NCBI GenBank assembly: GCA_016926755.1
Contig: JAFGNZ010000047.1
Span: 1-33,283 of the forward strand
Length of the DNA stretch: 33,283 bases
Direction of reading: 5' to 3'
Origin: Myxococcaceae bacterium
GTDB taxonomy: Bacteria; Myxococcota; Myxococcia; Myxococcales; Myxococcaceae
In this document: piece after piece, positions 11,473 through 14,809 of the stretch
Layout: the number at the start of each line of letters is the position of its first letter
Position numbering within the stretch: the first letter of the stretch is position 1
Program-made: the position numbers and the translations under genes
The notes under the pieces: generated by a model
What the model was told of the DNA's origin: nothing
Database searches by the model: none
What the model saw: only the letters and a program-made list of their open reading frames with translations

Positions 11473-12270
11473 CTACTTCGGGGCAGCGGGGAGGGCTGGC
11501 GCCTCGCGCTCCAGCCTCAGGCGGATGTCCGCGAAGTGGTAGGGCGCCCACGGGCCGGTGAACTGGAACGTGAGCAGCTCGAAGCGCGCGGCCAGGGAGC
11601 GCACCTGCGCGTCGAAGGCGGCCTCCTGCTCGCGCGCCACGAGGAAGGCCGCGTTGAGGATCATCCGCTCGCCCACGGGGCTCACCACCCGCGTGGCCGT
11701 GGCCACGGCGCTCAGCGCCTCCAGGATGCTCCGCGCGTCGTGCTCGGCCATCTCCTGCGGCATCAGATCCCTGTCCCAGAGCACCTTGAGGCCCAGCTCC
11801 AGGTGCCCCTCCAGCTTCTCCAGCACGCCCGTGAAGGCGTCCCGGGCCGAGCGCAGCAGCTCCTCCACCTCCTCGCGCCCGCGCAAGGTGAGCCCGAAGG
11901 CCATGGGCAGCAGCGTGTGCTCGCGCATCACCTCCTCCTGCGCGCGGTGATGGGCCAGCACGTTGTCCCGCGTGGGATCCGGGACGCCCAGCGGGCCCGA
12001 GGACACCACCGCCAGCAGCTCACCGTGGCGCACCGTCCCCACCATCGCCGGGGGCGTGCCCAGGCCGATGGGGCCAAAGCTCGGCTCCCCCTCCGCGCGC
12101 AGCACCCCGTAGACATAGAGGCCGCGGGCGCTCGCGGGCTCGCTGGAGGGCATGGGAGGGCGCGGGGGCTCGGCCTCTGGCGTGGGCGCCGCGGGGGAGG
12201 GCTCGGCTCGCTGCTTCACCGTGCGCTTGGCGGGGCGCGCTGCCCCCTTTCGGGACGAGGTCCGGGCCAT
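11473..12270 (-). CDS. GvpL/GvpF-family gas vesicle protein
   Basis: A 265-residue GvpL/F family member. The first ~48 residues are a basic then Pro/Ala/Glu-rich extension (RKGAARPAKRTVKQ...) not typical of the family. The domain opens at GLYVYGVLRAE (50-59) and includes HHRAQEEVMREHTLLPMAFGLTL (107-129), LGLKVLWDRD, ERMILNAAFLVAREQEAAF, and the hallmark end FQFTGPWAPYHFADIRLRLE (236-255). GvpF/GvpL are accessory proteins that bind GvpA and act in vesicle nucleation, and are structurally required in known systems. It is the last gene of a four-gene unit, 9 bases after the response regulator. No GvpG, GvpN, GvpK or GvpO gene is visible here, so participation in a true gas vesicle is doubtful. 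Confidence 0.87.
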   Translation of the reverse strand: MARTSSRKGAARPAKRTVKQRAEPSPAAPTPEAEPPRPPMPSSEPASARGLYVYGVLRAEGEPSFGPIGLGTPPAMVGTVRHGELLAVVSSGPLGVPDPTRDNVLAHHRAQEEVMREHTLLPMAFGLTLRGREEVEELLRSARDAFTGVLEKLEGHLELGLKVLWDRDLMPQEMAEHDARSILEALSAVATATRVVSPVGERMILNAAFLVAREQEAAFDAQVRSLAARFELLTFQFTGPWAPYHFADIRLRLEREAPALPAAPK

Positions 12271-12279
12271 GGCGCTCCC

Positions 12280-12690
12280 TCACCGTGCCGCGGAGGCCTT
12301 GCGCGCCGCCAGCACCCGCCGCACCTCCGCCACCAGCGCGTCCGGCAGGCAGGGCTTGATGACGAAGGCGTCGCAGCTCACCTGCTGATCCCCGGTCGCC
12401 TGGCCCGCCATCGCGTGCCCCGTCAGCGCCACCACCGGAATGGCGCGCGTGCGCTCATCGCTCTTGAGCCGGCGCGTGGCCTCCCACCCGTCGATGATGG
12501 GCAGCGAGAGATCCATCAGGATGACGTCCGGCAGCAGCGCGAAGGCCTTCTCCAGGGCCTCGGCGCCGTTCTGGGCCTGCGCCACCCGGAAGCCGGAGAA
12601 CTCCAGGTACTCCGCATACATCTCCCGCGCGTCCTGGTAGTCGTCCACCACCAGCACGAGCGGTTTATCGGCCCCCTGAGCGTTCGTCAT
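12280..12690 (-). CDS. Single-domain response regulator (REC only)
   Basis: A 136-residue CheY-like receiver with no output domain. The acidic pocket is Asp16/Asp17 in LVLVVDDYQD; the phosphoacceptor is Asp60 in VILMDLSLP; Thr90 is in VVALTGHAM and Lys112 in FVIKPC. All residues needed for phosphotransfer are present. Its ATG overlaps the stop of the preceding histidine kinase by 4 bases, so it is very likely phosphorylated by that kinase. With no DNA-binding domain it must act by protein contact, possibly on the GvpL/F-like protein encoded 9 bases downstream or on a distant partner; that is inference. Confidence 0.94.
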   Translation of the reverse strand: MTNAQGADKPLVLVVDDYQDAREMYAEYLEFSGFRVAQAQNGAEALEKAFALLPDVILMDLSLPIIDGWEATRRLKSDERTRAIPVVALTGHAMAGQATGDQQVSCDAFVIKPCLPDALVAEVRRVLAARKASAAR

Positions 12691-14375
12691 GCCTGCCTCA
12701 TACGCCGCGGCAAGTGCAGTGTGAAGGTGGAACCCTGGCCGGGCGTGCTCTGGACGGCGACGCTGCCTCCCATCATGGTCGCCAGACGTCGGCAGATGGA
12801 CAGCCCCAGCCCCGTCCCGCCGTAGGCGCGCGTGGGCGAGCTGTCCACCTGCTGGAAGTCCTCGAAGATCTTCTCCAGGTGCTCCGCGGCGATGCCGATG
12901 CCGGTGTCCTTCACGGAGATGCTCACCGTGGAGGTGGCTGGCGCGGAGTCGGCGGAGACCTGCACGGAGCCCTCGTGCGTGAACTTCAGCGCGTTGGACA
13001 GCAGGTTGAGGACGATCTGCTTCACCTTCTGCCGGTCGCCATGCACCGGGGGCAGCTGCGGCGCCAGCGCGGTGTGCACCGCCAGCTTCGTGCGCGCCAC
13101 GATGGGGTCCATCTCCGCCATCACCTCCTGGAGCAGCTCCGGCAGCTCGAAGTCGGCGGCGTTGAGCGGCATCCGCCCCGCCTCGATGCGCGTGATGTCG
13201 AGGATCTCGTTGATGACCTGGAGCAGGTGCCGGCCGTTGGAGTCGATGCGCTGCAGGTTGCGCCGCTGCTGGGGCGTCATCTCTCCGGAGACGCCCTGCA
13301 GCAGCATGTTGGTGTAGCCGAGGATGGCGTTGAGCGGGGTGCGGAACTCGTGGGACATGTTGGCCAGGAACTGCGACTTGGCCGCGCTCGCCTGCTCCAA
13401 CTGGAAGGCCTGCCGGCGCAGCTTCTCGTTCTGCTCGGCCAGCTCCGCGGTGGCCGCGTGCACCTTGGCCTCCAGCTTGTTCGAGGCCGCCCGGAGCTGC
13501 TCCAGCAGCCGGGCCTTCTCCAGCGCCTCGGTCCGATCATGCAGCAGGGTGACGATGGAGATCGTCTCCCCCTGATCCGAGAGCACCTTGCTGGCCACCG
13601 CCTCCATGGGCATGGGGGCGCCGGTGCCAGGCTCCACCAGGGGCAGCTCGCCGCGCCAGCGCCGCGCGTTGCCCGGGGAGAGCAGGTGGGACAGGAACGA
13701 GGAGAGGTGCGCGTCGTTGGTGCGCGCGCGCCGCCGGGTGGCCTCGCCGCTGTCGTGGGGGGCGGCGAAGAGGCGCTCGGCCGGATCGTTCATCAGCACC
13801 GTGCCGCCGGCCGGATCCGTGAGGAGGATGGGGTCCGCCACCGAGTCGAGGATCAGATCCAGGCGCAGCCGCTCCGAGCGCGCCTGCTGCTCCGAGGCCC
13901 GCAGCCGCCGGTAGCTCTCCCCGAGCGCCCGTGTGGCGCGGCCCAGATCCGTCATGTTGCGCAGCACGCACACCACGCCGGGAGTGCAGCCCGGCTCCTG
14001 CACCGGGGTGCTCACCAGCTCGAAGAGCAGATCCGTGCCCTCCACCGGATCCACCAGGGAGAGATCCCTGCGGCGCACGGCGGAGGCGCCGCCGGTGGCC
14101 AGGCTGGCCAGCGCGGTGTCCAGCAGCCGCTGGTTGAGCTCCACCGCGCGGCGGCGGCCCGCGTTGCTGGCCTCGTCCGCCACGAAGAGCTGGCGCGCGC
14201 TCGCGTTGGCGATCAGCAGCCGCCCCTCGAGGCCGGTGAAGAAGCAGGGATCCGTCACCGCGTCCACCAGGCGCCACAGCAGGGCGCGCTCGCGGTCGGC
14301 GGACAGGGGCTCCGACTCGGTGCGCGCCTCGGAGCCAGGTGCGGCGGGAGGCGTGAGGGGGGCGGTGGACGGCAA
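12687..14375 (-). CDS. PAS-domain sensor histidine kinase (soluble)
   Basis: A 562-residue kinase without transmembrane segments, hence probably cytoplasmic. Two PAS domains (about 30-145 and 170-285) lead into a coiled coil (about 285-335; LEAKVHAATAELAEQNEKLR), then HisKA with His342 in NMSHEFRTPLNAILGYT, and a HATPase with N-box NLLSNALKF (457-465), G1 DTGIGIA (490-496) and G2 GGTGLGL (519-525). The start is TTG at 14375, with GGAG 9 bases upstream; translation to MPSTAPLTPP fits. It begins 4 bases after the stop of the GvpA-like gene and its own stop overlaps the response regulator start, so the three are coupled. The signal sensed is unknown. Confidence 0.93.
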   Translation of the reverse strand: MPSTAPLTPPAAPGSEARTESEPLSADRERALLWRLVDAVTDPCFFTGLEGRLLIANASARQLFVADEASNAGRRRAVELNQRLLDTALASLATGGASAVRRRDLSLVDPVEGTDLLFELVSTPVQEPGCTPGVVCVLRNMTDLGRATRALGESYRRLRASEQQARSERLRLDLILDSVADPILLTDPAGGTVLMNDPAERLFAAPHDSGEATRRRARTNDAHLSSFLSHLLSPGNARRWRGELPLVEPGTGAPMPMEAVASKVLSDQGETISIVTLLHDRTEALEKARLLEQLRAASNKLEAKVHAATAELAEQNEKLRRQAFQLEQASAAKSQFLANMSHEFRTPLNAILGYTNMLLQGVSGEMTPQQRRNLQRIDSNGRHLLQVINEILDITRIEAGRMPLNAADFELPELLQEVMAEMDPIVARTKLAVHTALAPQLPPVHGDRQKVKQIVLNLLSNALKFTHEGSVQVSADSAPATSTVSISVKDTGIGIAAEHLEKIFEDFQQVDSSPTRAYGGTGLGLSICRRLATMMGGSVAVQSTPGQGSTFTLHLPRRMRQA

Positions 14376-14379
14376 GGCG

Positions 14380-14589
14380 CTACGCTCCGGTCCCTGTCAG
14401 CACGGGAGCCTCCTGGAGGGGCTCCAGGTGGGTCTCCACGGACTCGACGACGATGCGGACACGCTCTGCGGGCGGGCGGGCCCCCGCCAGCGTCACCTGG
14501 GGCCACGCATGGATCCGGATGCCCTGATCCAGGACGCGATCCAGGATGTCGACGAGGCTGGTGCTTCCAGGGTTTTTGACGACAGGCAT
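14380..14589 (-). CDS. Divergent GvpA/GvpJ-family small protein
   Basis: A 69-residue protein that aligns end-to-end with the gas vesicle shell protein GvpA/GvpJ. SLVDILDRVLDQGIRIHAW corresponds to GvpA SLAEVIDRILDKGIVIDAW, and VRIVVESVETHLE to ARIVIASVETYLK. The start at 14589 is chosen because AGGAG sits 6 bases upstream; an in-frame ATG at 14619 would add 10 residues. The central hairpin differs from GvpA: AWPQVTLAGARPPAERV replaces AWVRVSLVGIELLAIEA, adding prolines and charge where GvpA is hydrophobic. It is the first gene of a unit running through a histidine kinase and response regulator to a GvpL/F protein. Family membership is well supported; shell-forming ability is doubtful. Confidence 0.78.
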   Translation of the reverse strand: MPVVKNPGSTSLVDILDRVLDQGIRIHAWPQVTLAGARPPAERVRIVVESVETHLEPLQEAPVLTGTGA

Positions 14590-14809
14590 CCTGCGCTCCT
14601 GGCGTGTGGGCCGACCCATCCTCTTCCTACATAGCGCGCCCCCTGGCGCGCCCCCACGGTTTCGGTGGAAGTCCGCGAATTGCCAACACCCTGGGGTGCA
14701 CTCTGTTGCCTCGCATACACCCTGTCCACTTCATGCTGGCAGGGCAGGCGGGCATGCGAGCCGCGGCCACTGGCTTACCGCCCTCGGAGGCCATCCCTAG
14801 CCTTGGGCC
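14590..14809. other. Intergenic region between the divergent gvpA-like and FAD/Rieske genes
   Basis: A 220-base gap holding the promoters of two divergent units. No convincing sigma-70 or sigma-54 match was found. Two features stand out: a perfect inverted repeat CACCC-TG-GGGTG at 14687-14698, and a direct repeat ACACCCTG at 14686-14693 and 14717-14724, 31 bases apart (about three helical turns). These could be regulator sites for either direction. Confidence 0.35.

Follow-up and report, generated by a model that had tools for sequence, protein, structure and literature searches.

A conserved four-gene locus of Myxococcaceae that looks like a vesicle-free derivative of gas-vesicle gene clusters

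Introduction

Gas-vesicle (gvp) gene clusters carry co-directional genes for the wall protein GvpA (Pfam family PF00741; structures 8gbs and 7r1c) and for GvpF/GvpL proteins (PF06386; structures 6l5d and 4qsg). Homologues of both, enclosing genes for a PAS-domain histidine kinase (HK) and for a response regulator that consists only of a receiver (REC) domain (RR), form a four-gene unit on the minus strand of a 33,283-nucleotide contig of a Myxococcaceae bacterium (JAFGNZ010000047.1, assembly GCA_016926755.1; hereafter the window). The comparisons reported here indicate that this unit looks like a conserved, vesicle-free derivative of a gas-vesicle cluster and that, on balance, its GvpA has probably become a ligand peptide for GvpL/F within this remnant, beside a two-component pair.

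The contact between the two Gvp proteins has been described in Halobacterium, where GvpF is reported as the sole strong partner of GvpA among GvpF to GvpM (PMC7688916). It binds best to the fragment A1–22 (helix 1), with a relative fluorescence of 41 compared with 20 for the whole of GvpA and very low signals for A20–47 and A44–76; Arg15 and Gly20 of GvpA are reported to be required for binding, with Arg28 and Glu40 also important (PMC7688916). A 2024 review proposes a co-translational chaperone role for the contact and names Val35 and Ile37 as seam residues of GvpA (PMC10903477).

Dedicated regulators encoded with gvp genes, comparable in this respect with the pair described here, are reported as gvr in Serratia ATCC 39006 (PMC9501494); a full gvp set is present there. 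No earlier description of the four-gene unit appeared among the entries listed by searches of an open-access library, and neither 'gas vesicle' nor 'gvp' occurs in the main text of a genomic survey of Myxococcaceae signalling (PMC7694542).

Results and discussion

The unit begins with the GvpA-like gene (14380..14589, 69 residues) and continues with HK (12687..14375, with a TTG start), RR (12280..12690) and GvpL/F (11473..12270), all on the minus strand. A gap of 4 bases separates the first two genes, HK and RR overlap by 4 bases and a gap of 9 bases precedes GvpL/F, which reproduces in position and spacing the arrangement given by the first-pass annotation. Pfam searches place two PAS domains (PAS/PAS_4), HisKA and HATPase_c in the kinase and Response_reg in the regulator. 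Asp17, Asp60, Thr90 and Lys112 are invariant in an alignment of 16 RR rows, and the adjoining of a HisKA–HATPase kinase to a receiver domain in which the Asp, Thr and Lys residues are kept predicts a two-component pair. The GvpA-like gene matches PF00741 with 29.8 bits (cut-off 25) over profile positions 1–26 of 39 only, because the remainder of the shell domain is degenerate.

Orthologs of the three genes downstream of the GvpA-like gene lie within gvp clusters in other families and in other phyla. HK, RR and GvpL/F directly follow a true gvpA in clusters of the Myxococcota groups f2, f4, f6 and g10, and in one f2 locus that was read gene by gene they are succeeded by an ArsA ATPase, a second GvpL/F and GvpK. 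Among the best 80 loci from a scan of named genomes for GvpL/F relatives, at least 11 from Acidobacteriota, Rokuibacteriota, Planctomycetota and one Labilithrix (L117, L118, L120–L122, L124–L127, L129 and L130) show the series gvpA, HK, RR and GvpL/F, two planctomycete loci having two REC matches each; in several Gemmatimonadetes and Chloroflexi loci of the same 80 a less similar HK follows gvpA. When the HK of an f2 gvp cluster was compared with the source genome of the window, the window HK scored 612 bits and the next HK 174 bits.

A quick-method tree of combined HK and RR sequences (55 rows) unites the 35 Myxococcaceae rows that have no cluster at the locus in a single branch (SH-aLRT 98), which is nested among the rows from clusters; support at the nearest forks is 86 and 88, the outgroup is not separated from the rest by any single branch and several of the terminal branches are long. 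Loci L106, L072 and L095 were left out of this sample, five Corallococcus and eight Myxococcus rows were kept, and genome G039 was grouped as a four-gene row despite having no GvpA. The presence of HK–RR–GvpL/F within clusters, taken with the nested position of the Myxococcaceae pairs, identifies the unit, on comparative sequence grounds, as a stripped-down gas-vesicle cluster.

The kinases of Hyalangium and group g8 lack an N-terminal region of about 150 residues that is present in those of Myxococcus and of the f2 and f4 gvp clusters, and in which no Pfam domain was named. A close paralog of the regulator is encoded in the source genome at G000:C315:26037-26402 (196 bits, compared with 237 for the regulator of the unit itself), and many genomes of the family have a second regulator match of a score similar to that of the paralog. 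ArsA, homologues of which are reported in gvp operons (PMC2963123), was considered as a further relic. Matches to it occur at six of the f2, f4, f6 and g10 cluster loci, with a two-domain ArsA adjoining HK–RR–GvpL/F in clusters of f2 and f4 as well as at several loci from other phyla; orphan loci (those with the unit outside any gvp cluster) give no ArsA match, and 84 of 96 family genomes contain one, at 29–36% identity, whether the unit is present or not. A link between ArsA and the unit was rejected.

The source genome (G000; 9.59 Mb in 409 contigs, 100% complete and 3.67% contaminated, with the window as contig 4) was searched for other gas-vesicle genes. GvpL/F is represented by one protein only, that of the unit, matched as two pieces. 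GvpK gave no match (34 of 44 candidates scored), and GvpG none over the cut-off (26.7 bits against 30.6; 55 of 58 candidates scored). For GvpN, with 16 of 108 candidates scored, the best value was 32.9 bits and thus below the cut-off of 266.8, a weak criterion in that most of the 27 GvpK-positive genomes likewise fall under it. GvpG exceeds its cut-off in 14 of the 96 family genomes, every one of which has GvpK. The GvpO search gave no match in G000 and none in the control genomes either, so that this negative does not demonstrate its absence. The first-pass annotation had named a complete gvp cluster elsewhere in the genome as the finding that would speak for ordinary vesicles; none was found by the GvpL/F, GvpN, GvpK and GvpG searches, and no further gvp gene was seen at the locus itself.

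A second member of the GvpA family, a lone gvpJ-type gene on contig 166 (L003:8871-9194), is 84–86% identical at the DNA level, across some 200 bases, to the gene that ends gvp clusters in groups g3 and g8, and its contig has neither a GvpL/F nor a GvpK match. We infer that it is the last trace of a second gvp cluster, which this lineage lost without losing the four-gene unit. In Myxococcus and one Corallococcus, gvp clusters apart from the unit (L056, L064, L068, L096 and L115) contain GvpK and GvpG, with GvpN nowhere over the cut-off.

The distribution of the unit was followed by profile searches over 145 genomes of the order, after which loci were fetched and searched with the four window proteins and the flanking genes. 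GvpL/F was matched in 73 genomes, GvpA by Pfam in 31, GvpK in 27 and GvpN over its cut-off in three. Genera were labelled by their apparent named relatives (g1 Hyalangium, g5 Citreicoccus, g6 Corallococcus and g19 Myxococcus). Of the 53 genomes of these four genera and g8, 52 have HK–RR accompanied by Gvp genes, the exception (G062) giving no GvpL/F match. HK–RR is present in all 52 and the peptide in 50, the loci of G115 and G119 being cut off by contig ends; GvpL/F is matched on the contig of the unit in 51 and on a different contig in G102. All four genes share one contig in 49 of the 52, among which GvpL/F is broken in G106 and the HK match is split in G068. The recurrence of this order in related genomes excludes a chance arrangement, and the synteny check proposed in the first-pass annotation comes out in favour of a conserved order in these five genera. 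The neighbouring genes are also conserved, the one on the GvpL/F side in 46 unit genomes, the divergent one, in which a candidate FAD-binding motif was seen by eye, in 35 and at least one of the two in 50, in fetched stretches of unequal length. GvpK is encoded elsewhere in 11 of the 52 genomes and has no match in the other 41, G000 included.

Alignment of 48 orphan GvpA peptides with six cluster GvpA sequences (L095, which shares a contig with L058, and the frameshifted L103 being excluded) shows where the orphan protein has changed. Positions 1–60 are nearly invariant in the cluster rows; in the orphans positions 1–27 are conserved, 28–44 scrambled and 45–55 partly kept. The frame is open in all 48 orphan loci. 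Ratios of nonsynonymous to synonymous substitution (dN/dS) were computed by the Nei–Gojobori method from pairs within a genus, with bootstrapping over codons (seven rows for Hyalangium, 15 for Corallococcus and 23 for Myxococcus, in which order values are given). Codons 1–27 (14509..14589 in the window, minus strand), equivalent to the helix 1 that is bound by GvpF in Halobacterium, yield 0.14 (0.04–0.35), 0.27 (0.08–0.61) and 0.16 (0.06–0.35), at synonymous rates comparable to those of the kinase. Codons 28–44 yield 1.13 (0.63–2.01), 0.68 (0.41–1.10) and 1.25 (0.89–1.72), and those beyond codon 56 yield 0.45, 0.39 and 0.53. The corresponding values for the six cluster rows are 0.04 for codons 1–27 and 0.05 for codons 28–44.

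The mean hydropathy of the 30-residue hairpin region is 0.07 in the window and −0.03 on average in the 48 orphans, compared with 1.37–1.39 in the six cluster proteins; the hydrophobic character of the region has been lost and prolines have been gained. Neither Val35 nor Ile37 ranks among the five most frequent residues at its position in the orphans. With its hairpin drifting and no longer hydrophobic, the 'GvpA' of the unit has ceased to resemble a shell protein, the rib-forming hydrophobic β-hairpin of the cluster GvpA being apparently absent. Membership of the GvpA family by descent is nevertheless supported by the PF00741 match and by a match of window residues 2–65 to the solved GvpA structure 8gbs (45 bits, E value 6.6 × 10−11); likeness to the wall protein is retained by the orphans in helix 1 and the start of strand 1, and in the window copy, whose tail is closer to the GvpA letters than that of its relatives, over most of the length. 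No orphan peptide except that of the window appears in the PF00741 match list for the 145 genomes, so routine annotation would overlook them. An AlphaFold2 model of the peptide contains only a helix at residues 12–23 (mean pLDDT 57, from four alignment rows) and is weak evidence.

The GvpL/F protein matches PF06386 with 185 bits, and its AlphaFold2 model (pLDDT 82.3) is predicted to adopt the GvpF fold. The best solved structures in a Foldseek search are the GvpF entries 6l5d and 4qsg, with an E value of 3 × 10−15 and TM-scores of 0.68/0.76 for 6l5d chain A. About 35–40 residues between the two halves are missing from the proteins of the window and of two sister genomes. Of the residues that contact GvpF in Halobacterium, Arg15 and Gly20 are kept in 48 of 48 orphan peptides and an acidic residue at the Asp24 position in 45. 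By analogy with Halobacterium, the peptide is likely to bind GvpL/F.

The preferred reading combines what the sequences show (an origin in a gvp cluster, the disappearance of shell features, selection on helix 1 and a conserved gene order) with a modelled GvpF fold. The unit would be what remains of a gas-vesicle cluster with its own two-component system that no longer makes vesicles. Evolution would have cut its GvpA back to the helix gripped by the chaperone-like GvpL/F, and the two would have been retained as a binding pair. The PAS kinase, predicted to be cytosolic, would phosphorylate the neighbouring REC-only regulator. The peptide would load GvpL/F, and the kinase–regulator pair might set the proportions of free and bound GvpL/F or might read that state, with the regulator having a second output elsewhere in the cell. 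That the regulator touches the peptide–GvpL/F pair at all is conjecture, and control of the binding pair by kinase and regulator is a guess.

Several observations weigh against this reading. Arg28 and Glu40 are kept in just 14 and 12 of the 48 orphans, respectively, and the window copy has histidine at the Asp24 position and glutamine at that of Lys19. Codons 45–56 give mixed dN/dS values with wide intervals (1.17, 0.16 and 0.72). The rate of GvpL/F evolution is higher in orphan units (dN/dS 0.43–0.56) than in full clusters (0.11, from three f2 rows), indicating a constraint that is relaxed but still present. The two presumed partners are occasionally found apart, with GvpL/F but no GvpA in G039 and with the peptide kept in G106 although GvpL/F is broken, and some Myxococcus loci have a wider interval between the RR and GvpL/F matches than the window has. 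Finally, 12 genomes of groups g2, g3, g7 and g20 (L196–L204 and L208–L210) have HK–RR at the syntenic locus without GvpA or GvpL/F, by losses that amount to one or two independent events in the tree.

These 12 genomes give substance to the best surviving alternative, in which HK–RR is a stand-alone two-component system with a target of its own and the peptide and GvpL/F have an unrelated job, all four being neighbours by descent only. Since the pair survives in them, the Gvp parts cannot be its only job, and a regulator acting through these parts alone is not tenable. The tighter constraint on HK (dN/dS 0.24–0.29) and RR (0.14–0.24) than on GvpL/F points the same way; the HK value for f2 clusters was not used, one row being frameshifted. 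Set against this are the tight spacing in the window, a gene order kept by the orphan loci as well as by gvp clusters from several phyla, and the kinases of the 12 genomes themselves, whose matches begin at window residue 285 (ten of the 12), 242 or 252, beyond most of both PAS domains; one of these kinases was scanned with Pfam and gave no PAS match. We regard this alternative as rather doubtful, though worth keeping in view. The same genomes bear on the preferred reading in another way. At 75 loci with HK–RR, GvpA and GvpL/F were both found at 57 and both missing at 12, five of the other six lying at contig ends; from the joint absence in the 12 genomes, the peptide is tied to GvpL/F and not to the kinase.

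Alternatively, GvpA and GvpL/F could be functionless, decaying remnants beside a useful kinase–regulator pair. The relaxed constraint on GvpL/F, the dN/dS near 1 in the GvpA hairpin, the loss of both genes in one or two lineages and the broken GvpL/F of G106 would all be expected of decay. The helix-1 codons, however, are under clear purifying selection in three genera at kinase-like synonymous rates, the frame is open throughout the aligned orphan loci, and another gvp cluster of G000 has seemingly decayed to one gene while the unit is intact. This makes wholesale decay improbable.

The first-pass annotation had proposed that gas-vesicle parts are reused outside a vesicle cluster, which is supported by the conserved gene order and by the failure to find a complete cluster, and, as an example, that a phosphorylated regulator might control the assembly of a small polymer or scaffold built from the GvpA-like protein. 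This second proposal could draw on the more GvpA-like tail of the window copy and its long match to 8gbs. It is very unlikely in view of a rib hairpin with a hydropathy near 0 instead of 1.4, with prolines, changed seam residues and dN/dS near 1, and of a low-confidence model that shows a single short helix. No more credible is a small frame that serves merely as a translational leader for the kinase: in the window, as read from the sequence, it stops 4 bases short of the kinase start and a likely ribosome-binding site overlaps its final codons, but selection acts on helix codons far from that start, Myxococcus and Corallococcus carry the same peptide before a longer kinase, and in the 12 genomes the peptide is gone with GvpL/F although the kinase remains. 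Service in ordinary gas vesicles built with genes elsewhere in the genome, for which the separate GvpK of 11 unit genomes might be cited, is the least credible reading, given the 41 genomes without a GvpK match, the sub-threshold GvpG and (a weak test, since several GvpK genomes also fall short) GvpN of G000, and a peptide without a GvpA-like hairpin.

Upstream of the GvpA-like gene lies a TGT-N10-ACA palindrome of CRP/FNR-type spacing (14704..14719, minus strand), with a TGTTGG..A element (14680..14688, minus strand) 31 bases downstream of it. The palindrome is present in all 47 orphan upstream regions of at least 200 bases (one of the 48 orphan loci, with a shorter region, was left out), compared with 0.67 expected from base shuffles, and the second element, in the form TGTT(G/C)G..A, recurs at the same spacing in 47 of 47. 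In the 12 loci that kept only HK–RR, the palindrome is always found about 90–114 bases from the divergent gene and the second element in four. Its retention near the divergent gene in all of these loci means that the palindrome may serve either this neighbour or the peptide gene. MrpC, with the reported motif TGTYN8RAC (PMC4320627), was considered as its regulator but is not supported: only half of the motif fits, A or G standing where Y is required.

Conclusions

The unit differs from gvp clusters in a genome without a GvpK match and with GvpN and GvpG under their cut-offs, from wall-forming GvpA in the lost hydrophobicity and seam residues of the orphan hairpin and the mostly lost Arg28 and Glu40, and from GvpF/GvpL in a shortened protein (in the window and two sister genomes) under relaxed constraint in the orphans. 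It presents a clear case of an organelle gene cluster pared down to a conserved unit that stands apart from every such cluster, in which the cut in GvpA falls near the boundary between the helper-binding part and the wall-building part. As a natural minimal GvpA–GvpL/F pair, the unit may be used for studying the handling of the insoluble wall protein, which the 2024 review calls crucial to resolve (PMC10903477).

A bolder extension, which we offer tentatively as possible but not probable, is that the unit is a new kind of signalling module, in which a wall protein serves as a short ligand peptide occupying a former chaperone, GvpL/F, and the inherited two-component pair controls or reads that occupancy; the receiver protein of the parent clusters in soil phyla would switch vesicle assembly by direct action on GvpL/F. 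Since gvp clusters of several soil phyla carry the kinase–regulator pair, control of vesicle formation is testable there. For the Myxococcaceae, the results suggest that, in many soil myxobacteria in which no full gvp set was seen, components once used for buoyancy have taken on another role.

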